Shown here in pieces: positions 2,449-13,065 of a stretch of DNA of 37,229 nt. The translations under genes were made by a program, and so were the position numbers. Numbering within the stretch: the stretch's first letter is position 1; every line of letters starts with the position of its first letter. The stretch is from Bacillota bacterium (GTDB lineage: Bacteria > Bacillota > Sulfobacillia > JAJZYS01 > JAJZLH01): NCBI GenBank assembly GCA_021803575.1, contig JAJZLH010000073.1, positions 1-37,229 on the forward strand, written 5' to 3'. The notes below the pieces were generated by a model. That model had not been told where the DNA came from, ran no database searches, and saw nothing but the letters and a program-made list of their open reading frames with translations.

Positions 2449-3624
2449 CTACTGGACACCGTTCGGAAACTCCTGCTGGAACCGCTTGTACATGGCCAGG
2501 ATCGACGCCACATAGTTCTGCGTCTGCTCATAGGGCGGGATGCCGCCGTAGCGCAGCACACTGCCGGCCCCGGCGTTGTAGGCGGCGAGCGCCAGCGACA
2601 CGTTGCCGCCGAACTCGCGGAGCAGCCCGGCCAAATCGCGGATGCCGCCCTGCAGGTTCTGGATCGGGTTGAAGGGGTTGGTGACGCTCAGCCCTGCGGC
2701 CGTCGACGGCATCAGCTGCATCAGCCCGAGCGCCCCCGCATAGCTCTTGGCGTTGGGGTTGCCGCCTGACTCTTGCATGATCACCGCCATCACCAGGTAG
2801 GGGTCGACGCCGTAGGTCTGGGCGATGCCGTAGAGTGCCGTCCAGAGCTGCGCCTTAGTCAGCCGCCCGGAGGCGTACTCGCCCTCCAGGGCCATGATCT
2901 TCTCGGTCAGGCTGTTCTTCTGGAGCAGGAGGGCGTGCTCGACGGACAGCACCGCTGAGCGCTTGGAGAGCAAGGCCGCCAGTTCGGCCCGGCGCTGGTT
3001 GTTCTCCGAAAGTAGCTGATTCTCGACGGACAGGGCCGCCTGCTGCGCCGCGGCCAGCGACTGGCGCTCCTGGTTGATCAGCGCGATCTCGTGTGCCAGC
3101 TGCACCTTTTCAGTGGCCAGGCGCTGGGACGCCTTCAGCTCGAAGGCGGAGACGTTGGAGATCTCGGCCAGACGGGCCGTGAACTCTTGGAAGCTGTTCA
3201 CCTGCAGCAGCACGGCCAGGTAGCCGATCGGGCCGTGCTCCTCGGTCCAGCGCAGGACGGAGGTGAGGGCGGCCCACGTCTGGTTGTAGGATGCGACTGT
3301 GGCGTTGTACTGGGACTGGGTGCGATTCAGCATCTCGGTGGCGACCACTTCCTCCGCCTGCAGGACCAGGAGCTTCTCCCTGGTCACGGCGATCTGCTGG
3401 TCGATCTGGTCCAGGGCCACCACCGTGGCGTGTGTCTGGTAGTTGAGGGCGCCGAGGAAGGCGTTCTCGGCCTGGACCTGACTTTCCACTGTGTTCAGCT
3501 GCCTGGTCAGCTGCGAGACGTTCGAGCCGCCCGAGGCAGACGCCAGAGCAGGCCCCAGGGTCAGGGCCCCGATCCAGATTCCGATCATCAGGACCCCAAG
3601 CAGCCGGCGTCGAGGACGCAACAA
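2449..3624 (-). CDS. Secreted lytic transglycosylase with N-terminal coiled coil
   Basis: Peptidoglycan hydrolase of the SLT (goose-lysozyme-like) family, which cleaves the MurNAc-GlcNAc bond outside the membrane. From the start chosen here, a signal peptide (MLRPRRRLLG plus a hydrophobic core to about residue 30) is followed by a long coiled coil (about 37-250) rich in Gln, Ala and Leu. The SLT domain is at about 260-380: catalytic Glu285 in MQESGG, then GLMQLMPSTA and LAAYNAGAGSV. The coiled coil resembles those of PcsB/RipA-like hydrolases that are held inactive by FtsEX-type partners, but here it is joined to an SLT rather than a CHAP or NlpC domain. TTG at 3624 follows AAGGTGG and gives a clean signal peptide; an upstream ATG at 3657 lacks a ribosome site. 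The gene is monocistronic. Confidence 0.88.
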   Translation of the reverse strand: MLRPRRRLLGVLMIGIWIGALTLGPALASASGGSNVSQLTRQLNTVESQVQAENAFLGALNYQTHATVVALDQIDQQIAVTREKLLVLQAEEVVATEMLNRTQSQYNATVASYNQTWAALTSVLRWTEEHGPIGYLAVLLQVNSFQEFTARLAEISNVSAFELKASQRLATEKVQLAHEIALINQERQSLAAAQQAALSVENQLLSENNQRRAELAALLSKRSAVLSVEHALLLQKNSLTEKIMALEGEYASGRLTKAQLWTALYGIAQTYGVDPYLVMAVIMQESGGNPNAKSYAGALGLMQLMPSTAAGLSVTNPFNPIQNLQGGIRDLAGLLREFGGNVSLALAAYNAGAGSVLRYGGIPPYEQTQNYVASILAMYKRFQQEFPNGVQ

Positions 3625-3856
3625 GCGAAAACCCCCACCTTCGCATGATATGGGCATGCGGCGTTATGTCGTTCGTGATCCTGTTGAACCTTCCTGCTTG
3701 CCCCTTAGGGGAGATTGGGAATCTTCTGTCTCCTTGCCGGGTCCCATTGCCGCCGCTGTCGGTCCTGGCGGGCCATGCAGGATCACCCGTGGCCGTGAAC
3801 GGGCCGAGGCGGGGTTTGGCTGCAGAGCTAGATCTCCCAGCCGACCACCCAACCAA
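3625..3856 (-). promoter_or_regulatory. Long structured 5' leader of the transglycosylase gene
   Basis: More than 200 bases separate the predicted promoter from the start codon. Several stems can be drawn on the minus strand: GGCTG with CAGCC around an AGA/TCT pair, GGAGA with TCTCC, and the compact CCCCTAAGGGG. Cell-wall hydrolase genes in Gram-positive bacteria often carry c-di-AMP riboswitches. I compared this leader with that consensus and with c-di-GMP-I, and found only a loose GGGTGATCC element, so no class is assigned. Confidence 0.35.
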
Positions 3857-3886
3857 AGCCTAGCGACGGCGGTGACAGGCTGTCAA
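3857..3886 (-). promoter_or_regulatory. Promoter of the transglycosylase gene
   Basis: On the minus strand a perfect TTGACA (3881-3886) is followed after 18 bases by TAGGCT (3857-3862). It lies in the gap between the transglycosylase and the divergent hydrolase, pointing at the former. The perfect -35 box makes it the most convincing sigma-A-type promoter in the window. Confidence 0.6.
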
Positions 3887-3971
3887 TAAACCGCACGGCG
3901 TGCCAAGATGGCCAGGCCAGGTCGCTCTCCGGGCGCTGGCCACGCTCTGGGCAGACCGAGGGGGCACATCT

Positions 3972-4670
3972 ATGCCGATGCTGCAGGTAAACGGCGTCCG
4001 ACTTCACGTCGAGGATGCGGGGTCAGGTGAGGCCGTCCTCTTCCTGCCCGGGCTTGGCCTCAAGGTCTCCGAGTGCCACCGCCTCCTGGCGCCGTTTCGC
4101 ACCGCCAGGCGCGTGCTCGCCATCGACAATCGCGGCGCGGGGCTGTCGGACAGGCCCGAGCAACCTTACACCATCCACACCATGGCCGAGGACGCCGCGC
4201 AGGTGCTTGGCGCCTGCGGCGTGCGTCGGGCCCACGTCGTCGGTGTCTCGATGGGCGGGAAGATCGCCCTCTCTCTTGCCCTCGTCCACCCCGAGATGGT
4301 GCGCAGTCTCGTGCTCGCCTCAACCCAGGCTGGTCCCCCATCGCCGGCGCAGAGACGGCGGCTTGGGCAACTGTCGTTGCTGGCCCGTCTCTTTGACCCT
4401 GCGGCCGACCGCATCGGCCGTGAGCACCAGCGGGCGGCCTCCCTTGCCTTCGACTGCTGGGCGGATCTGCCGAACGTCCGAGTGCCCACCCTCATCATCC
4501 ATGGCCGCGCTGACCGCGTGGCCTCGTACTCCCTGGCCAGGGAGATGCAGCAGCGCATCCCCGTGTCTCGGTTGGTGGCGGTTCCCGGCGGCCACATGTT
4601 CTTCATCTTCCGGCCCAAGGCACTGGCGGACCCGGCGCTCCAGTTCTGGGCCGGCCTCCCGACAGAGTGA
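3972..4670 (+). CDS. Alpha/beta hydrolase, 232 aa
   Basis: Soluble alpha/beta-hydrolase-fold protein. The nucleophile elbow is GVSMGG with Ser93, the acid is Asp181 in HGRADRV and the base is His208 in PGGHMFF, so the triad is complete. The oxyanion segment is LPGLG near residue 25, and DNRGAGLSD (52-60) matches the D-x-R-G-x-G-x-S motif of the family. The cap domain is small, between about 120 and 165. ATG at 3972 follows GAGGGGG by about 8 bases; an upstream in-frame GTG at 3900 has no ribosome site. It stands alone between two minus-strand units, so the substrate cannot be inferred; esterase, lactonase or C-C hydrolase are all possible. Confidence 0.88.
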   Translation: MPMLQVNGVRLHVEDAGSGEAVLFLPGLGLKVSECHRLLAPFRTARRVLAIDNRGAGLSDRPEQPYTIHTMAEDAAQVLGACGVRRAHVVGVSMGGKIALSLALVHPEMVRSLVLASTQAGPPSPAQRRRLGQLSLLARLFDPAADRIGREHQRAASLAFDCWADLPNVRVPTLIIHGRADRVASYSLAREMQQRIPVSRLVAVPGGHMFFIFRPKALADPALQFWAGLPTE

Positions 4671-4715
4671 CGGTGGGACGGGTCGCGTCCGGACTCGTGG
4701 CAGAAGATGCGCAGA

Positions 4716-4733
4716 GGAGCCCCCTGGGGCTCC
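4716..4733. terminator. Symmetric hairpin between convergent units
   Basis: GGAGCCCC and GGGGCTCC form a very stable stem with a tight loop. It sits between the end of the plus-strand hydrolase (4670) and the end of the minus-strand tRNA cluster (4750), so it could stop transcription from both sides. Neither side has a long U-tract. Confidence 0.5.
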
Positions 4734-4749
4734 CCTCGACACCGGTCAG

Positions 4750-4825
4750 TGGTGGGCCATGCAGGACTCGAACCTGCGACACTCCGCTTAAAAGGCGGGC
4801 GCTCTACCAGCTGAGCTAATGGCCC
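4750..4825 (-). tRNA. tRNA-Lys (anticodon UUU)
   Basis: Acceptor GGGCCAT with ATGGCCC, discriminator A, encoded CCA, D-arm GCTC/GAGC, T-arm GCAGG-TTCGAGT-CCTGC. The anticodon loop is CTTTTAA. The anticodon stem CCCGC/GCGGA has a C27-A43 mismatch at its top. Third in the cluster His-Gln-Lys. Confidence 0.95.
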
Positions 4826-4836
4826 GAAACCGGATC

Positions 4837-4911
4837 TGGTTGGGGCGGTAGGACTCGAACCTACGATGCGGGATCCAAAGTCCCGTGCCTTACCAGCTTG
4901 GCGACGCCCCA
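4837..4911 (-). tRNA. tRNA-Gln (anticodon UUG)
   Basis: Acceptor TGGGGCG with CGCCCCA, discriminator A, encoded CCA, T-arm GTAGG-TTCGAGT-CCTAC and anticodon loop CTTTGGA on a CGGGA/TCCCG stem. It is separated by 11 bases from tRNA-Lys and is probably cut from the same precursor. Confidence 0.95.
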
Positions 4912-4916
4912 AACTT

Positions 4917-4994
4917 TGGGGTGAATGAGGGGACTTGAACCCCCGGCCTCCAGGGCCACAACCTGGCGCTCTAACCACCTGAGCTACATCCACC
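4917..4994 (-). tRNA. tRNA-His (anticodon GUG)
   Basis: Acceptor GTGGATG with CATTCAC (one G-U pair), an extra 5' G-1 opposite C73 as required for HisRS recognition, encoded CCA and anticodon loop TTGTGGC. First gene of the three-tRNA cluster in the direction of transcription. Confidence 0.95.
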
Positions 4995-5077
4995 ACGCCA
5001 AGCCTCACGGTAGCATCCGCCGGAAAGAAGCGTCAAGGCGTCCGCGGCCGCTATCAGGAGCGAGGAACCGGCCCCGC

Positions 5078-7021
5078 TCACCCCACGCTGCGCCTGGCCG
5101 GCTGATAGGTGACCAGCGCCTGCACCAACGGCCACATCATCAGCAGCAAGAAGGGGGCATTGCTGAGGAGCCGCCACCACTCCGCCGCCCACGCCCGAAG
5201 GCCGTGCGGCCGCTGGCGGAGGTCGATCCACGGCTGGTAGCGGGCACTCCAGGACGGGAGCAGCACCAGGAAGGGCAGGTTGACCACCACCACAGCGGCC
5301 GCCAACAGGGAGAGACCGCCAGCCATGGGCATCAGGCCGGTCAAGATGAGAAGCAACGCGCCTGGGCCCGCCAGGAACAGCCCGAAGCCGAGCAGCCACT
5401 GGAATGGCCCTTCCGCCAGCATCAGGCCGAGCGTCCACCACCGCCGCTGATGCCACACCAGGCGCAGGGCGTCCAGATAGCCGAATGCCCACTGCTCGCG
5501 CTGGCGCATGGTCGCCGCCACCGTGGGCGGGGACCCCTCGCTGGCGGCCGAGGGCAGGAAGGAAGGCCTGATGCCCGTGCGCTGCCAGACCCGGAGCGCA
5601 AAGTCCCCCTTCTCCGCTCCGCCCTCTGGTGCGAAGCCGCCGAGCGACTCCACCAGCTGCGGGGCGATGAACAGATTGCTGTCGGCGGGCAGCGGGAAGA
5701 GCGTCATCCAGGCCGGGTAGAAGACATCGTGAACGATGGTCTGGTAGAGGGCCGCCGAGCGGGGCGCCGGATCGAGGCGGTAGAAGTTCTGTATCGGGAA
5801 GAGTGGCCCCCGCGTGAAGAACGTCTGCCGCTCCTGGTCCGACCGGCACCTCGACCACTGTCTGGCCACCAGCTGCAGGGCATCGCGCGGGGGACGGCAG
5901 GCGGCATCGTAGATGCCGATCAGGTCACACTGGCTGAACCGCCGGCGCGCCCAGTTGAGGGTCCTGCCCTTGGACGGCTTGGACACCAGCCGGCTGCCGG
6001 CGCAGGCAGCCGGCCCAGGGCAGGAGGCCTCACCGCCGAGGCAGCTCTCCCCGTAGCAGGCTGGCACCACCATGATGCGCAGGTTGGCAGGCAGGGAACC
6101 GCCGCCCACACCAGCTGCCACCTGGCCCACGGCCGCCTTGCCGCCGGGCGGCGGTACAGACGGCTCAGACGATCGCGGCCGGGCCCGGATCGCCAGGTAC
6201 AGCTCGTCCAGGGTGAGGGCGGGCAGGCGCGCCTCCGCCCGGCGGCCGGCCAAGAGCCGGAAGGCCTGCAGGGACCGGCCGTGCCGGTTCATGATCTCAT
6301 CCAGAAAGCCCGGTACCTGGCGCTCCTGGTCAAAGCTGTAGCTGGCCAGGGCGCCGCGAGCCGCCGCCCGCAGGTGCCCGTCCGAAACCGCCCGGGCGGC
6401 CATCGTCTCGTAGACGAAGCGGATGGTGAGGTCCTCGGGTTCATCGAACAGGCGCTGCAGCCAGCCCACCAGCGCCTGGCGGTCCGCAGGCAGGCGGGGG
6501 TGCCGGCTTGCCGCCTCGGCCATCGCCGAAAGCGTCTCCGTCAGCGCCCGCTGGCGCTGCTCCACAAGACGCCGCTCGCTGCCATCAATCAGGAGGAGAG
6601 CCTCAAGGCGCTGGCGGGGGTAGTCCAGGAAGGCCAGCCTGCGCACGGTCTGGGCGATCAGCTCGGGGTCGTCCGGGGTCAGCACCAGGAGCCCGATGCT
6701 CGGCAGCTCAGAGCCGGGCGCCGCGTTGGGCCGGCGCCACCAGAGGTCTCGGCTGAGCAGCCAGAGGCCAGTGCGGGCGAAGAACCCGACGTAGAGGCTC
6801 AGCAGCACGACGCCCTGCCACTCCACGGCCGGCAGGCCCCGCCCCAGCCGGATGCCAATGGCGGCAATGGCCGCCAGCACCGCCCAGCTCAGGATGATGA
6901 GGGCATTGGCGGCAAGCCGGCCCGCACCGCCGCGCTGGGCGCGCCCCAGGCGCCTTTGCTCTGGCCGGGCCGGTCCGCGGCCCGGCGGAGCCAGTTGTGC
7001 CGCCGGTGCCGTCCTACCCAT
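5078..7021 (-). CDS. Membrane GT2-like glycosyltransferase, divergent
   Basis: A membrane protein of about 647 residues with the layout of processive or cellulose-synthase-like GT2 enzymes: two N-terminal membrane spans (about 36-58 and 69-90), a cytosolic domain opening with LPSIGLLVLTPDDPELI, then KGRTLNW (351-357), and several C-terminal spans (about 535-590 and 620-640). The catalytic landmarks are altered. The D-x-D position reads DAA (372-374), the TED position reads EKGD (470-473) and QxxRW reads QREQW (507-511). About 140 extra residues separate the first strand region from KGxxLN. ATG at 7021 follows GGGGGAGGG; the GTG at 7060 has no such site. It follows the SDR gene by 55 bases and may share its mRNA. 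Substrate and activity are unknown. Confidence 0.65.
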   Translation of the reverse strand: MGRTAPAAQLAPPGRGPARPEQRRLGRAQRGGAGRLAANALIILSWAVLAAIAAIGIRLGRGLPAVEWQGVVLLSLYVGFFARTGLWLLSRDLWWRRPNAAPGSELPSIGLLVLTPDDPELIAQTVRRLAFLDYPRQRLEALLLIDGSERRLVEQRQRALTETLSAMAEAASRHPRLPADRQALVGWLQRLFDEPEDLTIRFVYETMAARAVSDGHLRAAARGALASYSFDQERQVPGFLDEIMNRHGRSLQAFRLLAGRRAEARLPALTLDELYLAIRARPRSSEPSVPPPGGKAAVGQVAAGVGGGSLPANLRIMVVPACYGESCLGGEASCPGPAACAGSRLVSKPSKGRTLNWARRRFSQCDLIGIYDAACRPPRDALQLVARQWSRCRSDQERQTFFTRGPLFPIQNFYRLDPAPRSAALYQTIVHDVFYPAWMTLFPLPADSNLFIAPQLVESLGGFAPEGGAEKGDFALRVWQRTGIRPSFLPSAASEGSPPTVAATMRQREQWAFGYLDALRLVWHQRRWWTLGLMLAEGPFQWLLGFGLFLAGPGALLLILTGLMPMAGGLSLLAAAVVVVNLPFLVLLPSWSARYQPWIDLRQRPHGLRAWAAEWWRLLSNAPFLLLMMWPLVQALVTYQPARRSVG

Positions 7022-7772: not shown

Positions 7773-8618
7773 ATGCCAATGGAGATCGCGGTGCTGGGCA
7801 TGGCCGTCGAGGAGACCGCTCAGCTGCCCTCCGGCCAGACCCTCACCACGGTGGGCGGCTCGGCCGTCAACGTGGCGATCGGCCTTCGCCTGTGGGGACT
7901 TCACCCCACCCTGGTGGTGGGCGGCAGCCCGGCAGCTCTGTCGGCACTCCAGGCCAGCGGCCTGTTCGGCCCAGACCTGATCGCCGTGAGCGGGCCGCCT
8001 GCCCGCTCCCTGGTCGAGGTCGGAGCAGATGGCGCCAGTCATGTCGCCTTCGCCGCCACACCGCCGCCTCCCTTCGCCGCGCTGGTGCCCGCCCCCCTGG
8101 TGCTGCTCTCCGGCTTCGACCTGACGGCGGATCCAGAAGGCTTCATGGCCACTGCCCACCGCCTGCGACGGGCCGGATCGGCACTCTGGCTGGACCTGGG
8201 CCCAGCCGCCCGCCAGGGCGAGCTGCTCACGCCCTGCCTGCCGCTCCTGGATGCCCTGTTCATGAACCAGGAGGAAGCGGCCGCCTGGACCGGGCTGAAG
8301 ACTCCCGGCCGCATGCTGGGCCGGATCGCCGTGCCTGAGGTGCACATCAAGCTGGGCCAGGCCGGCTCTCTCGCCCGCCGCATGAGCGAGCGGCGGCGGG
8401 CGCCCGCGCCGCCGGCCCGGGCGGTCGACTCCACCGGTGCCGGCGACTTCTACCTGGCCGGCGCCGCCGCCACCAGACACCTGCCGCTAAGGGCCACCCT
8501 GGCCGCGGCCAACTGGATGGGGTCCCGCGCCACCGAGGTGCCGGGAGCTGGCCTTCACCTGGCGCGGCTGCTCGGCCCCCCTGTCACCTCCAGCGGCTCC
8601 TCCACCACCTGGCCCTGA
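7773..8618 (+). CDS. PfkB-family carbohydrate/nucleoside kinase
   Basis: Ribokinase-like fold. VGGSAVNVAIGL (27-38) is the N-terminal sugar-binding motif and DSTGAGDF (219-226) is the anion hole with catalytic Asp225. At about 281 residues it is slightly short for the family, with a reduced lid, so the phosphorylated substrate cannot be named. AGGAG precedes ATG 7773 by 4 bases and ATG 7779 by 10, so either could be used. Its last 64 bases overlap the end of the convergent mec gene. It is one of only three plus-strand protein genes in the window, and its promoter must lie inside the SDR gene. Confidence 0.85.
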   Translation: MPMEIAVLGMAVEETAQLPSGQTLTTVGGSAVNVAIGLRLWGLHPTLVVGGSPAALSALQASGLFGPDLIAVSGPPARSLVEVGADGASHVAFAATPPPPFAALVPAPLVLLSGFDLTADPEGFMATAHRLRRAGSALWLDLGPAARQGELLTPCLPLLDALFMNQEEAAAWTGLKTPGRMLGRIAVPEVHIKLGQAGSLARRMSERRRAPAPPARAVDSTGAGDFYLAGAAATRHLPLRATLAAANWMGSRATEVPGAGLHLARLLGPPVTSSGSSTTWP

Positions 8619-8971
8619 TCGATCCAGAAGCCGCGCACCTCCGGTGTCTCGGCCCGCAGCGACGCGATCAGGTAGAGGCACCCCGGATAGTGCGCCTCCC
8701 GCACGTCGGTCTGGGACGGCACCGCCGGAGTGGTGGGATGGGAGTGGCCAATCGCCACCAGGCTCTGGCCCGCCGCCTCCATCTGGCGCAGCACAGACAG
8801 GATGCGGGCCGGATCGATGCGATAGGTGAAGGGGCTCTGGTCCACATTGGCACAGGCGTAGAAGCTCATGATCCGCCCCGGCCGGCCGCCGAACAGCCCG
8901 CAGGCCTCGTTCGGCTGCCGCCGCCTTGCCTCGGCCAGAAAGAGGGCGAGCGGCCGGGCCAGCACGATCAC
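8555..8971 (-). CDS. mec: Mec-type JAMM metallopeptidase (CysO-cysteine hydrolase)
   Basis: MPN+/JAMM zinc peptidase. Glu22 in NEACGLFGG, His76 and His78 in GHSHPTT, Ser86 and Asp89 in VPSQTDV give the full E-HxH-x(7)-S-x2-D site. In Mycobacterium, Mec frees cysteine from the C-terminus of the carrier CysO after cysteine synthase has loaded it. Here it directly follows the cysteine synthase, with GTG overlapping its TGA (GTGA), and two genes follow the CysO fusion, so the same role is very likely. It could also process the fused CysO precursor. The 3' end overlaps the convergent kinase gene by 64 bases. Confidence 0.88.
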   Translation of the reverse strand: MIVLARPLALFLAEARRRQPNEACGLFGGRPGRIMSFYACANVDQSPFTYRIDPARILSVLRQMEAAGQSLVAIGHSHPTTPAVPSQTDVREAHYPGCLYLIASLRAETPEVRGFWIDQGQVVEEPLEVTGGPSSRAR

Positions 8972-9879
8972 GCCGGCCCATCCTCCATCAGGCTGAGGTA
9001 GCGCTCGCCGGAGTCCGGGAAGACGGTCACCACCACCGCCCCAGCCGGCAGCTTAAGGCACTCCCGGCGCGCCGCCCAGGCGGCGGCGCCGGAGGACGGC
9101 CCGGCCAGGATGCCCTCCTGCCGGGCCAGCTGGCGGGCGCTCTCCACGGCATCCTGGTCGGAGACGGCCACCACCCGGTCGATCAGGGAACGGTCGAGGA
9201 CCTTCGGCTCGAAGCCGGCGCCGAGTCCGTCGATGCGGTGCAGGCCCGGCCTGCCGCCGGACAGCACCGGAGACCTGGCCGGCTCCACGGCCACGATCCG
9301 AAGGCTGGGCCGGCGCTGGCGGAGGGTGCGGCCGACGCCGGTCAGGGTGCCGCCCGTGCCCACGCCCAGCACCAGGCAGTCCAGTTCCCCGCCGGTGTCC
9401 CGCCAGATCTCCTCGGCGGTGGTGTCCTGGTGGGCCTGGGGGTTGGCCGGGTTTTCGAACTGCCCGACCAGGAAGGCGCCCTCGGCCTGGGCGATCTCCT
9501 GGGCCGCCCATACGGCGCCGCTCATCCCCTCTCTGGCCGGCGTCAGCCGCACCTCGGCGCCCAGCCAGGAGAGCAGGCGGACCCGCTCCGGTGTCATGTT
9601 CTCGGGCATGGTCAGAACCAGCCGGTAGCCGAGCGCCGCTGCCGCCACAGCCAGGCCGATGCCCGTATTGCCGGAGGTGGCCTCCACGATGGTGGCGCCC
9701 GCCTGGAGCCGACCCTCCCGCTCCGCCTGTCGGATCATGGCCACCGCCGGCCGGTCCTTGACGCTGCCGCCCGGATTCAAAAACTCGAGTTTGGCATAGA
9801 GGCGCCCCGCCGGCGCCCAGCGCCCCAGCCGCACCAGGGGTGTGTCGCCGACCGCATCCAGGATGCCCTGCTCCCTCAT
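8968..9879 (-). CDS. cysK: Cysteine synthase, CysK/CysM family
   Basis: PLP fold-type II enzyme that swaps the activated hydroxyl of serine for sulfur. Lys41 in GGSVKDRP binds PLP, TSGNTG (68-73) binds the substrate carboxylate, GTGGT (174-178) binds phosphate and GPSSGA near residue 270 faces the pyridine nitrogen. The loop HRIDGLGAGF and the stretch FENPANPQAH match O-acetylserine CysK types rather than the O-phosphoserine CysM of Mycobacterium. Its place between the CysO fusion and mec nevertheless suggests it can take sulfur from the protein thiocarboxylate. ATG overlaps the stop of the fusion gene (ATGA). Serine donor preference is not decided by sequence alone. Confidence 0.9.
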   Translation of the reverse strand: MREQGILDAVGDTPLVRLGRWAPAGRLYAKLEFLNPGGSVKDRPAVAMIRQAEREGRLQAGATIVEATSGNTGIGLAVAAAALGYRLVLTMPENMTPERVRLLSWLGAEVRLTPAREGMSGAVWAAQEIAQAEGAFLVGQFENPANPQAHQDTTAEEIWRDTGGELDCLVLGVGTGGTLTGVGRTLRQRRPSLRIVAVEPARSPVLSGGRPGLHRIDGLGAGFEPKVLDRSLIDRVVAVSDQDAVESARQLARQEGILAGPSSGAAAWAARRECLKLPAGAVVVTVFPDSGERYLSLMEDGPA

Positions 9880-11300
9880 GCCCTGTCCTGCCAGGCCAGA
9901 TTGCGGTCGCGCCAGGCCAGGAGGCCGCCCTTCAGGTTGGCGGCTCGGATTCCCGCATCGGCGGCCACCAGGGCAGCCACCTGGGACTTCTGGCCGATCT
10001 CGCAGAAAAAGACCACCCGCTTCGCCTCTCGCAGCTGCTCGAGCCGGCCGGAGAGCTCTTCGATCGGCAGGGACACGGCGCCGGGGATGGTGCCGGCGGC
10101 GAAGGCGGCCGCCGGGCGGAGGTCGACCCAGAGGGCTCCCGGCGCAGCCAGGAGAGCTCTCGCCTCTTCGATGTCCACCTCCTCCGCACCGGGGGCGTCG
10201 ACGCCGCGCCGGGGCGGACCGGAGCCGCAGAAGGCGACATAATCTATGAGGCCCTCCTGGCTGGGGTGGTCCCCGCAGAGGGCGCAGTCCGGGCGGCGCT
10301 GCCAGCGGAAGGTGCGGCTCTGGCCGGTGAGGGCGTCCACCACCAACAGCCGGTTGGCCAGAGTCTCGCCGACGCCGAGCAGCACCTTCAGCGCCTCCAG
10401 CGCCTGGATCGAGCCCATCTGGCCGGCCAGTGCTCCGATCACGCCGGCCTCGGCGCAGGAGGGGACGGTACCGGCCTCCGGCGGCGTCGGGAAGAGGCAG
10501 CGGTAGCAGCCCTGGCCCGGCATGAACACCGTGGCCTGTCCCTCAAAGCGGAGGATGGAGGCATCGATCAGAGGCTTTTCGAGCAAGACGCAGGCGTCGT
10601 TGACCAGATAACGGGTCGGGAAGTTGTCCGAGCCGTTCACCACCAGATCGTAGCCGCCGATCACAGTGAGGGCGTTGGTGCTGTCCAGCACCACCGGGTG
10701 GGCGATCACCGCCACGTCGGGGTTGAGCTCCCGGATGAAGCGGCTGGCCGACTCCACCTTCGATCCACCCACGTCTTGGTCGCGGTGCACCGGCTGGCGG
10801 TGCAGGTTGGAGCGCTCCACCAGGTCGCCGTCGACCACGCCGATGGTGCCCACGCCGGCCGCCGCCAGGTAGGTGATGACAGGAGCGCCCAGGCCGCCGG
10901 CGCCCACCACCAGCACCTTGGCCGCCAGCAGCTTGCGCTGCCCGGCCATGCCCAGTTCGGGCAGGATGATCTGGCGCGAGTAGCGCTCCACCTGATCCGG
11001 GCTGAGCAGCCGCATCCCCATGCTGCCGCCGGCCATGGCCGGGATCAGGGCCAGCTCCTCCCCGCCCGCCAGCGGCGCAGCGAGGCCGCCCAGGGTGCGC
11101 ACCTCGGCGTCGTCCACGTAGACGTTGAGGTAGTCCTTGAGCTGGCCGGTGGCGGTAAACAGCTCGTCGCCGAGACCAGGCCTAAGCCGGCACAGTTCGG
11201 CCAGGGCCTCACCGACGGTGGCCCCCTCCACGCTGAGCACGGTCTGGCCGCCGGTGTGCTTGCGGTAGGGCGTGGGCACATAGACGGACACGGTGGGCAT
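9876..11300 (-). CDS. moeZ: CysO-MoeZ fusion: ubiquitin-like carrier, E1-like enzyme, rhodanese
   Basis: One 474-residue chain holds three parts that are usually two proteins. Residues 1-92 are a MoaD/CysO-type beta-grasp sulfur carrier ending in LIPAMAGG. Residues about 100-345 are a ThiF/MoeB adenylating domain, with VGAGGLGAP (132-140), ERSNLHRQ, NGSDNFPTRYLVND, zinc cysteines 265/268 and 339/342, and conserved Cys282. Residues about 375-474 are a rhodanese domain with Cys433 in CEIGQKS. The E1 would adenylate the carrier's C-terminal glycine and the rhodanese would supply sulfur. Because the Gly-Gly is internal (91-92, followed by SMGMRLLS), cleavage must precede that chemistry. The frame is continuous, and GAGGAGG sits 7 bases before the ATG. 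Next genes: cysteine synthase and mec. Confidence 0.9.
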   Translation of the reverse strand: MPTVSVYVPTPYRKHTGGQTVLSVEGATVGEALAELCRLRPGLGDELFTATGQLKDYLNVYVDDAEVRTLGGLAAPLAGGEELALIPAMAGGSMGMRLLSPDQVERYSRQIILPELGMAGQRKLLAAKVLVVGAGGLGAPVITYLAAAGVGTIGVVDGDLVERSNLHRQPVHRDQDVGGSKVESASRFIRELNPDVAVIAHPVVLDSTNALTVIGGYDLVVNGSDNFPTRYLVNDACVLLEKPLIDASILRFEGQATVFMPGQGCYRCLFPTPPEAGTVPSCAEAGVIGALAGQMGSIQALEALKVLLGVGETLANRLLVVDALTGQSRTFRWQRRPDCALCGDHPSQEGLIDYVAFCGSGPPRRGVDAPGAEEVDIEEARALLAAPGALWVDLRPAAAFAAGTIPGAVSLPIEELSGRLEQLREAKRVVFFCEIGQKSQVAALVAADAGIRAANLKGGLLAWRDRNLAWQDRA

Positions 11301-11302
11301 GG

Positions 11303-11692
11303 CTAGACCTCCTCGAAGTAGGGGCGGATCGGACCGTCGTCAAAGCAGCTGCCGGCGGCCAGCTGCATCTGGGCGAACTTCTGGCTGACGCCGGGCATGA
11401 CCAGGTAGTCCAGCCAGCGCACCCGCTCCGTTTCCGGGAGCTGGGCGAGGGCCCCGATGGCGAGGTGGATGGCATCGCCCCCAGGAGCGATGCCGAAGTC
11501 CAGCCGGAACCGGCCCTCGGCCACCAGGCGGCCGGCGGAGTCGGTGCGGTGGGCGCTGACCGCAGGGTCCTGCCGGTAGGCGTCCAGCACCTGGGGGTGA
11601 AACCAGACCGGGAACTGGTGGTAGTTCTCTGGCCCCAGGGCGCGCTTCAGATAGGCGCGCACGAAGGGGTCAAGCGGCACCCTGGCCGCCAT
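11303..11692 (-). CDS. Uncharacterised 129-aa protein in the sulfur operon
   Basis: I do not recognise the family. The protein is soluble, without signal peptide or membrane span. Visible features are an N-terminal helix (DPFVRAYLKRALG), an aromatic-rich turn (ENYHQFPVWFHP), a strand-like RFRLDFGIAPGGDAIHLAI, and a C-terminal GSCFDDGPIRPYFEEV with the only cysteine. ATG at 11692 lies 2 bases past the sulfurtransferase stop, and the gene ends 2 bases before the fusion start, so it is translated as part of the operon. The position between two sulfur-transfer proteins suggests a role as a sulfur-relay adaptor or a sulfur-compound handling protein; this is inference from context only. Confidence 0.8.
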   Translation of the reverse strand: MAARVPLDPFVRAYLKRALGPENYHQFPVWFHPQVLDAYRQDPAVSAHRTDSAGRLVAEGRFRLDFGIAPGGDAIHLAIGALAQLPETERVRWLDYLVMPGVSQKFAQMQLAAGSCFDDGPIRPYFEEV

Positions 11693-11694
11693 CC

Positions 11695-12537
11695 TCAGCT
11701 CTCCAGCCCGCGCTTCACCGCGGTGCCGACCATGCTCCCCCACTCCGTCCATGACCCGTCGTAGCTCTTCACGTCCGGGTAGCCGAGCAGCTCGTGCAGC
11801 ACGAACCAGGTGTGGGCCGAGCGCTCCCCGATCCGGCAGTAGGCGATCACCGGCCCATCGGGCCGGACGCCGTGGCTGGCGTAGAGCTGGCGGAGTGCCG
11901 GCTCCGGCTTGAAGCGGCCGTCCGGCCCGACCGCCTGGGACCAGGGAATATTGACCGCGCCCGGAATGTGGCCGCCCCTTTGCGCCGTCTCGCTGAGCCC
12001 GGGCGGGGCCAGCACCTCCCCGCTGAACTCCTTCTCGCTGCGCACGTCGACCAGGGCGGCTTGGCCCAAGCTGGCGGCCACCTCCGCCTGCAGCGCCCGC
12101 ACGCTCGAATCGGCCGTCGGCACCGGGTAGGTGATTGCGGCCGGGGCCGGAGTCTCGGTGCTGTAAGGCCGGCCTTCCGCCTCCCAGGCCTGGCGGCCGC
12201 CGTCCATCAGCGCGACCTGCCTGTGCCCGTACAGGGTGAGCAGCCAGTAGGCGTAGGCGGCGAACCAGTTGGAGGCGTCGCCGTACAGCACCACCCGGTC
12301 GTCCGGGCCGATACCGGAGCCTCCCATCAGGCGGGCGAAGTCCTCGCTACTGATGATGTCCCGCCGCACCTGGTCCTGCAGGTCAGTGGTCCAGTTCCAG
12401 CCCACGGCACCCTGCAGGTGCCCCGCCGGGTAGAGCGTGGGGTCGACGTCCACCTCCACCAGGCGCACACCCTTGTCCCTGCCGTGTGCCGCCACCCAGT
12501 CGGTCGACACCAGCACCGATGAGCGATCCCTCTGCAC
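11695..12537 (-). CDS. Thiosulfate sulfurtransferase (two-domain rhodanese)
   Basis: A 280-residue tandem rhodanese. The N-terminal domain (about 8-125) is inactive: the active-site position reads YGDASNW. The C-terminal domain (about 145-275) carries Cys234 in CRIGERSAHTW, a loop typical of thiosulfate sulfurtransferases such as mycobacterial CysA-type rhodaneses (SseA/CysA2). It moves sulfane sulfur from thiosulfate to an acceptor thiol. As first gene of the operon it would generate the persulfide used downstream by the CysO-MoeZ fusion. The start is GTG at 12537, a few bases after AGGCGGGG. An AT-rich dyad just upstream may be the operon's control site. Confidence 0.92.
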   Translation of the reverse strand: MQRDRSSVLVSTDWVAAHGRDKGVRLVEVDVDPTLYPAGHLQGAVGWNWTTDLQDQVRRDIISSEDFARLMGGSGIGPDDRVVLYGDASNWFAAYAYWLLTLYGHRQVALMDGGRQAWEAEGRPYSTETPAPAAITYPVPTADSSVRALQAEVAASLGQAALVDVRSEKEFSGEVLAPPGLSETAQRGGHIPGAVNIPWSQAVGPDGRFKPEPALRQLYASHGVRPDGPVIAYCRIGERSAHTWFVLHELLGYPDVKSYDGSWTEWGSMVGTAVKRGLES

Positions 12538-12681: not shown

Positions 12682-13065
12682 TCAGCAGACGGCTGTAGCC
12701 TCGATCTCCACCAGGAGCCTGGGGTCGATCAGGGCGCTGACCTGCACCATGGTCGTGGCTGGACGGGTGCCCCGGAAGAACTGGGCGTGGGCCTGGCCGA
12801 TCTCCTGCCAGTGGGCGATGTCGGTCACGAACAGCCGGGTGCGCACCACCTGGCTTGGCTTTGCCCCCAGTTCGGCCAGGGCTTGGCCGATGATCTCAAG
12901 GGCCCGCATCGTCTGGGCGTAGGGATCGCCCTCGGCGACCACCTGGTCGCCGGCCATGGCGGTGGTGCCGGACACCTCGATCCTGTCCCCGACCCGGACC
13001 GCCCGGCTGTAGCCGACCAATCCCTCCCAGGGCGAACCGCTCGACACCTCGGTGCGCCTGTCCAT
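12682..13065 (-). CDS. RidA/YjgF family protein, 127 aa
   Basis: Small trimeric-fold protein of the RidA (YjgF/YER057c/UK114) family, some of which hydrolyse reactive enamine/imine intermediates from PLP enzymes. The closing segment TRPATTMVQVSAL, then LVEIEATAV, is the family hallmark. The arginine that binds the substrate carboxylate in canonical RidA (P-A-R-S) is threonine here (P-A-T-T, residues 102-105), which points to one of the subfamilies without imine deaminase activity. ATG at 13065 follows AGGAGGTGG by 6 bases. It is third in the mutY-mazG-ridA run and next to a PLP-dependent cysteine synthase operon, which may or may not be meaningful. Confidence 0.88.
   Translation of the reverse strand: MDRRTEVSSGSPWEGLVGYSRAVRVGDRIEVSGTTAMAGDQVVAEGDPYAQTMRALEIIGQALAELGAKPSQVVRTRLFVTDIAHWQEIGQAHAQFFRGTRPATTMVQVSALIDPRLLVEIEATAVC

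Follow-up and report, generated by a model that had tools for sequence, protein, structure and literature searches.

A 129-residue protein with one invariant cysteine is encoded directly behind a subtype of tandem rhodanese in one bacterial phylum

In a 37,229-nucleotide stretch of DNA from a member of the Bacillota (contig JAJZLH010000073.1, hereafter the window), a gene for a 129-residue protein lies between the genes for a tandem rhodanese and a MoaD-E1-rhodanese fusion. By gene order within one phylum, the partner of this protein is the rhodanese, and specifically one sequence subtype of it. Every stand-alone homologue that we found is encoded directly behind such a rhodanese, and all of them share a cysteine at the position of Cys116. 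We propose, at a probability of roughly 45%, that the 129-residue protein is a dedicated rhodanese accessory in which Cys116 would accept sulfane sulfur and pass it to an acceptor that depends on the lineage. Synthesis of the protein would follow that of the rhodanese immediately, probably through translational coupling, and the two proteins most likely bind each other. Cys116, in the C-terminal tail, may then take over the sulfane sulfur of the persulfide formed on the rhodanese, possibly helped by R55 and H76, and could deliver it to different acceptors in different lineages, the direction and the target of this transfer both being presumptive. In the lineage of the window, the operon suggests that the sulfur would end in a route to cysteine through the CysO-like MoaD, a cysteine synthase and a JAB peptidase.

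The gene and its compact unit

The 129-residue reading frame is a real gene. Homologues are present in two congeneric genomes at 78% and 74% identity, the start position agrees in the alignment of the homologous proteins, and comparison of the window with the two congeneric genomes (NG86) gave dN values of 0.12–0.20 against dS values of 0.73–0.96, indicating purifying selection. The gene belongs to a five-gene unit (Table 1) that runs, from right to left, through the tandem rhodanese, the 129-residue protein, the MoaD-E1-rhodanese fusion, the cysteine synthase and the JAB peptidase. As first described, its start and stop fall within 3 bases of both neighbours: 2 nt separate the end of the rhodanese gene (11695) from its ATG (11692), and another 2 nt separate its stop codon (11303–11305) from the ATG of the fusion (11300). 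Genes are packed throughout the five-gene unit, so this tight spacing is little proof of a special link; the cysteine synthase and JAB genes each overlap their upstream neighbour by 4 nt. A RidA-family gene lies 144 nt upstream of the rhodanese, at which distance a common transcript is not a given, and among the nine other homologue loci a RidA gene was present only in the two congeneric ones.

Table 1. Features of the window, followed by the larger proteins that contain a related embedded domain (positions given for the locus named).
Feature	Position	Strand	Evidence
129-residue protein gene (stand-alone, single-domain)	11303..11692	minus	ORF and translation, homologues, purifying selection
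Tandem rhodanese of the CysA2 type (by sequence a thiosulfate sulfurtransferase) with active loop CRIGERS	11695..12537	minus	Pfam Rhodanese, two stretches
MoaD/ThiS-E1(ThiF/MoeB)-rhodanese fusion	9876..11300	minus	Pfam ThiS, ThiF, Rhodanese
Cysteine synthase family protein (CysK/CysM), PLP enzyme	8968..9879	minus	Pfam PALP; NCBIfam TIGR01139 (cysK) above cut-off
Mec-like peptidase with a JAB domain; final gene in the compact unit	8555..8971	minus	Pfam Prok-JAB
RidA-family protein	12682..13065	minus	Pfam Ribonuc_L-PSP
Cys116 codon of the 129-residue gene	11345..11347	minus	Alignment, 10 stand-alone homologues
Larger-protein family member, L007	7149-8792		
Larger-protein family member, L008	7167-8795		
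Larger-protein family member, L009	7149-8771		
Larger-protein family member, L019	3068-4780		
Larger-protein family member, L021	3185-4765		
Larger-protein family member, L117 (G216)			

The original prediction gave the protein no recognisable family, which holds for curated families and gives way in profile comparison, where remote relatives emerge (below). Searches of Pfam and NCBIfam to E 1 with the 129-residue protein were empty, as were those of PADLOC and of PDB sequences to E 10, and its only PHROGs match (E 0.09 over 8 residues) was not credible. The viral contigs and phages searched contained no relatives. We took as chance a DUF6213 match in three of the ten family members (best E 0.059), SnoaL and DUF7770 matches in one member each (E 0.22), and matches to the proteasome activator BLM10 in profile and sequence searches of the PDB (E 0.1 and above). 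An AlphaFold model computed with three close sequences was unusable, with a mean pLDDT of 46.3. Neither the 129-residue protein nor its pairing with a rhodanese subtype was found described in the literature and family libraries searched. The core of the operon is already known as type 4c (see last section).

Homologues and the rhodanese subtype

The ten stand-alone homologues, the window's own counted, come from one phylum and from two of its classes. Six belong to the window's own class (genomes G000, G001, G002, G021, G459 and G460) and four to a second class (G252, G364, G591 and G592); the G genomes belong to the window's phylum, as far as they are listed. The gene was found in 4 of 41 relatives and in 5 of 398 genomes of the phylum. 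A later draw of 399 relatives yielded matches in eight genomes, seven of which were already known; the eighth (G216, E 9.8e-5) carries an embedded form of the domain and not a stand-alone protein. Scoring in the 398- and 399-genome searches covered the 10 top candidate places of each genome, so that weak matches may be missed. Searches by class returned 6 of 154 genomes in the window's own class, with the best 27 candidate places scored per genome, where weak matches may likewise be missed, and 4 of 72 genomes in the second class, with every listed candidate scored. Identity to the window protein falls to 29–30% among the homologues.

All ten genes have the same type of tandem rhodanese directly upstream on the same strand; the two genes overlap in some loci and are otherwise separated by no more than 72 nt (the value for G364, taking its ATG as the start), and no stand-alone homologue was found away from the rhodanese. 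The original prediction had asked whether homologues always sit beside the fusion or the rhodanese genes, and only the rhodanese proved to be a constant neighbour. Genes for the MoaD-E1-rhodanese fusion, cysteine synthase and JAB protein lie downstream in six of the ten loci, all from the window's own class, and none of the three was found on the fetched stretch of the four second-class loci. There, the next gene encodes a thiolase in G252, G591 and G592, as judged by Pfam for G252 and G592 and by a similar translation for G591.

The window's rhodanese is of the CysA2/CysA3 type by sequence (PDB 3aax, E 2.7e-91; 3hwi, E 3e-91) and resembles the rhodanese 1uar (E 6.7e-90). A survey at E 1e-60 or better returned 34 rhodanese loci, 21 in the 154-genome class and 13 in the 72-genome class. 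The 129-residue gene follows ten of them; four are cut by the end of the contig, with 53–146 nt left after the rhodanese stop, and the other 20 have downstream DNA without the gene, as judged from the downstream translations and from profile searches. The profile searches also found no copy elsewhere in the genomes with an unpartnered rhodanese except in G364, where the gene stands behind the other rhodanese of that genome.

Partnered and unpartnered rhodaneses differ in sequence. The partnered enzymes are at least 60% identical to that of the window, and the unpartnered ones with downstream DNA are all below 59%. Eleven alignment positions, a one-residue deletion included, separate the 10 partnered from 15 unpartnered CysA2-type rhodaneses when a residue is required in at least 9 of the 10 and in at most 2 of the 15. 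V31, N48, D80, L100, T184 and the one-residue deletion near position 181 are common to all ten and absent from all 15. Left out of this comparison were the partial G463, G003, the distant G587b, G228b, G364b and G540, and the contig-cut G461, G466 and G526. Within the genomes compared, the partnered subtype differs from the CysA2/CysA3 type by a residue signature of its own. We do not claim this signature as a binding interface, as common ancestry explains it equally well. In a rhodanese tree, drawn without the partial G463 row and with a label count that set partnered rows against contig-cut rows only, the fork supports were 91/25 and 87/76. The tree does not settle one origin of the partnered rhodaneses. 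Both signature and pairing could be explained by shared ancestry alone.

Two side observations concern other rhodaneses. The contig of G003 (L040) ends 53 nt after the stop of a rhodanese that is 66% identical to the window's and agrees with the partnered subtype at 10 of the 11 signature positions, including V31, N48, D80, L100, T184 and the deletion. Its last 53 bases can be read from a GTG as MPHAAASLLRRALDGRPQ, which resembles the first helix of the family and is suggestive only. Behind several related, unpartnered rhodaneses (L061, L062, L065; L066–L069) lie genes that are NifU_N/SufU-like or encode sulfur transport (YeeE-like), identified by Pfam for the neighbours of L061 and L066 and by the look of the translation for the others. 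By these neighbours, the rhodanese type is combined with different sulfur modules.

Cys116 and the embedded relatives

As originally noted, the 129-residue protein contains a single, C-terminal cysteine; this is residue 116, within GSCFDDGPIRPYF. Conservation of this residue, on which the sulfur-relay idea leaned, was borne out: Cys116 is one of 17 positions invariant in the ten stand-alone homologues, where it lies in the motif [GA]-x-C-x-[DE]-[DE]-G. Additional cysteines occur in the proteins from G460, G252, G591 and G592, and C116 alone is common to all ten. To our knowledge, this motif matches no known sulfur carrier, and we know of no carrier's cysteine motif that is present in the 129-residue protein.

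Remote relatives were found inside larger proteins. A tblastn search of plasmids gave weak matches (E 7e-4 to 5e-2) within Rhodococcus proteins of about 540 residues. A six-row profile, built without these proteins, scored 41.0 bits against L008 and 36.9 bits against both L007 and L009 in hmmsearch, with weaker scores for L019 (19.3), L021 (13.8), L022 (8.2) and L018 (7.3). Alignment of the ten stand-alone rows with five embedded rows by hhalign, L022 left out, gave a probability of 98.7% (E 1.5e-15, 117 aligned columns, score 84), while 100 column shuffles scored at most 14.2 and the reversed profile 0.8. These comparisons indicate that the 129-residue protein is remotely homologous, over most of its length, to an internal domain of larger proteins. 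The profile search that the original prediction had named among its checks retrieves no curated family and does retrieve distant kin.

The embedded domain forms the middle part of proteins of 526–570 residues in five plasmid records from Rhodococcus and Pseudomonas (Table 1), for example A3L23_RS24170 in NZ_CP015236.1 and PMA4326_RS28835 in NZ_CP047261.1. Further larger-protein relatives are encoded on Streptomyces and Pseudomonas plasmids and in one genome of the window's phylum (G216); the embedded form was sought in plasmids, phages and the G genomes, and the apparent plasmid bias reflects this scope. An annotated form of 276 residues occurs in Streptomyces longwoodensis. Beside the conserved middle domain, the larger proteins have a C-terminal part, which in most contains R-S-x-G-x-A-H-x-K-G. 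No credible model was found for the larger proteins scanned (three members against Pfam and PADLOC, two against NCBIfam). Many neighbours of their genes are hypothetical, and none is annotated as a sulfur-relay gene. In R. fascians, a thiamine pyridinylase gene is among the neighbours; one larger-protein gene lies two genes before a SAVED-domain gene, and another adjoins gmtX.

These relatives touch on the refuting outcome that the original prediction had set for itself, a family unrelated to sulfur, in a mild form: the distant fold relatives are internal domains without a clear sulfur context. They also give a foothold to the idea that the fold was acquired from an unrelated larger protein and serves a role outside sulfur chemistry, for instance as a regulator or stress protein, since the nearest fold relatives found are of this kind. 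We consider such a role very improbable, as the pairing with the rhodanese persists in both classes despite changes elsewhere in the operon.

A joint alignment of the ten stand-alone proteins with six embedded domains, from which L018 and L022 were left out, divides the conserved residues into two groups. F31, V35, I75 (valine in the embedded domains) and E89 make up the common fold. R55, H76, F106, C116 and G120 hold without exception among the stand-alone proteins but not in the six embedded domains, and for this reason we assign them to the rhodanese-linked form. The residues aligned to Cys116 in the embedded domains are V, V, V, C, Y and A. One embedded row each has Cys, His or Phe at the corresponding column, and the alignment is uncertain at the tail; as a conserved set, the Cys, His and Arg residues are absent from the embedded domains.

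For Cys116 as an acceptor of sulfur speak the position of all ten homologues behind the subtype rhodanese, in two classes, and the invariance of the cysteine, in a sample of ten sequences from one phylum. Against it stand the embedded relatives, which do without the cysteine, and the four loci without an E1, where the gene that follows encodes in three cases a thiolase and not a sulfur enzyme. An invariant cysteine can be structural or metal-binding, and in a reading that we hold to be somewhat less probable the 129-residue protein transfers nothing. It could instead bind the rhodanese and stabilise it, shield its persulfide or tune its substrates, with Cys116 as a structural residue, a redox switch or a metal ligand. 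Constant pairing requires binding only, the downstream genes vary between lineages, and the fold is generally independent of the cysteine, given that this position is not conserved as cysteine in the embedded relatives. However, Cys116, R55 and H76 are invariant together down to 29–30% identity, which is more than binding by itself would demand. A stronger version of the acceptor reading, which we regard as rather unlikely, holds that the protein is a new sulfane-sulfur carrier: an embedded domain that turned stand-alone, gained the Arg/His/Cys set and became the dedicated acceptor of one rhodanese subtype. If this were true, it would help, in the window's lineage, to supply sulfur to the route to cysteine that runs through MoaD, cysteine synthase and JAB.

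The MoaD-E1 fusion and known sulfur systems

The original prediction saw in the 129-residue protein a sulfur-relay adaptor, or a subunit that channels persulfide from the rhodanese to the E1. Its first half, the tie to the rhodanese and the invariant cysteine, has stood; delivery specifically to the MoaD-E1 fusion has become improbable. The gene does lie exactly between the rhodanese and fusion genes in six of the ten loci, and an invariant Cys116 would suit an adaptor. However, the four second-class loci have no E1 nearby. The E1 matches in these genomes (E 1e-50 or better) are found elsewhere and have no MoaD part, and in three of the four genomes they also have no rhodanese part.

A survey from the side of the fusion points the same way. 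Among 30 loci for MoaD-fused E1 proteins, which are the best places of an E1 search with more matches, 24 have no 129-residue gene and six have one. Neither the tandem rhodanese nor the 129-residue gene was found in 23 of the 30 within flanks of at most 1.5 kb, some of them cut by the contig end; five of these 23 gave weak rhodanese matches (24–31% identity) in or just behind the E1 frame, which we read as the fusion's own rhodanese domain. A class-wide profile search found no 129-residue gene in any of the 24 genomes whose MoaD-fused E1 is without it. The remaining locus, in G525 (L119), has the tandem rhodanese and no 129-residue gene. Its operon is complete, with the rhodanese at 2478–3347, the MoaD-E1-rhodanese fusion at 3372–4901, the cysteine synthase at 4856–5803 and the JAB gene at 5689–6216, and the rhodanese and fusion are adjacent, 24 nt apart. 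This operon is a natural control.

A rhodanese domain is built into the window's fusion itself, with a cysteine in the segment FCEIGQKS, so there is no a priori need for a further adaptor to the E1. The E1 protein MoeZR of M. tuberculosis, which likewise has a rhodanese domain, sulfurates CysO on co-expression in E. coli, according to passages of PMC3227635.

Known small partners of sulfurtransferases give points of comparison with the 129-residue protein. In mycobacteria, SseC (DUF1416) is a small neighbour of cysA2 and cysA3, and TusA/SirA, DsrE, DsrC and SoxY are persulfide carriers that work with sulfurtransferases. The 129-residue protein would resemble these carriers in its manner of working only, being small, with one conserved cysteine and a genetic pairing with a sulfurtransferase. 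None of the ten members, the window's own protein included, had a Pfam match to SseC/DUF1416, to TusA/SirA, DsrE, DsrC or SoxY, or to ThiS/MoaD/CysO.

The operon as a whole is of a described kind. Type 4c of Iyer et al. (2006) comprises ThiS/MoaD, an E1 fused to a rhodanese, JAB and a cysteine synthase, as set out in the relevant passages of PMC1779556, and the window operon encodes a MoaD-like protein, an E1 with a rhodanese domain, a cysteine synthase and a JAB protein together (Pfam), as does that type. Its core genes are alike to those of type 4c in the same passages (PMC1779556) and to CysO, MoeZR, CysM and Mec of M. tuberculosis. The window's unit departs from the CysO pathway and type 4c in that its MoaD and E1 form one fusion, its first gene encodes a separate rhodanese of the CysA2 type, and it includes the 129-residue protein as an addition; among 12 of the 16 matching passages of PMC1779556, none mentions such a protein. 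SirA is proposed there to replace the rhodanese in type 4e operons (PMC1779556), and cysA2 and cysA3 are placed in operons with molybdenum-metabolism genes in a passage of PMC6856128. With 24 of the 30 fused E1 loci lacking the gene, and with the operon of G525, the 129-residue protein is not a regular component of the CysO/CysM/Mec-type operon.

With a thiosulfate-sulfurtransferase-like enzyme and its constant neighbour encoded directly ahead of a carrier/E1 fusion, the operon points to a sulfane donor, thiosulfate or a related compound, as a source of sulfur; for the mycobacterial CysO route to cysteine, the source was stated to be unknown in 2011 in a passage of PMC3227635. The rhodanese and the 129-residue protein make up an expressible two-protein system, and the latter is a compact natural version of a domain that had no curated model in the libraries searched.

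A last observation concerns the carrier part of the fusions. The MoaD part keeps its C-terminal AMAGG at the internal junction in 18 loci, and one more has AMSGG, which by pattern makes 19 of the 32 E1 loci (L070–L101). The pattern misses variants, AMAGG also being present in G459, from which L091 comes, and the length of the linker varies. A free GG end of MoaD would need a cut at this junction, which the operon's own JAB peptidase might make.
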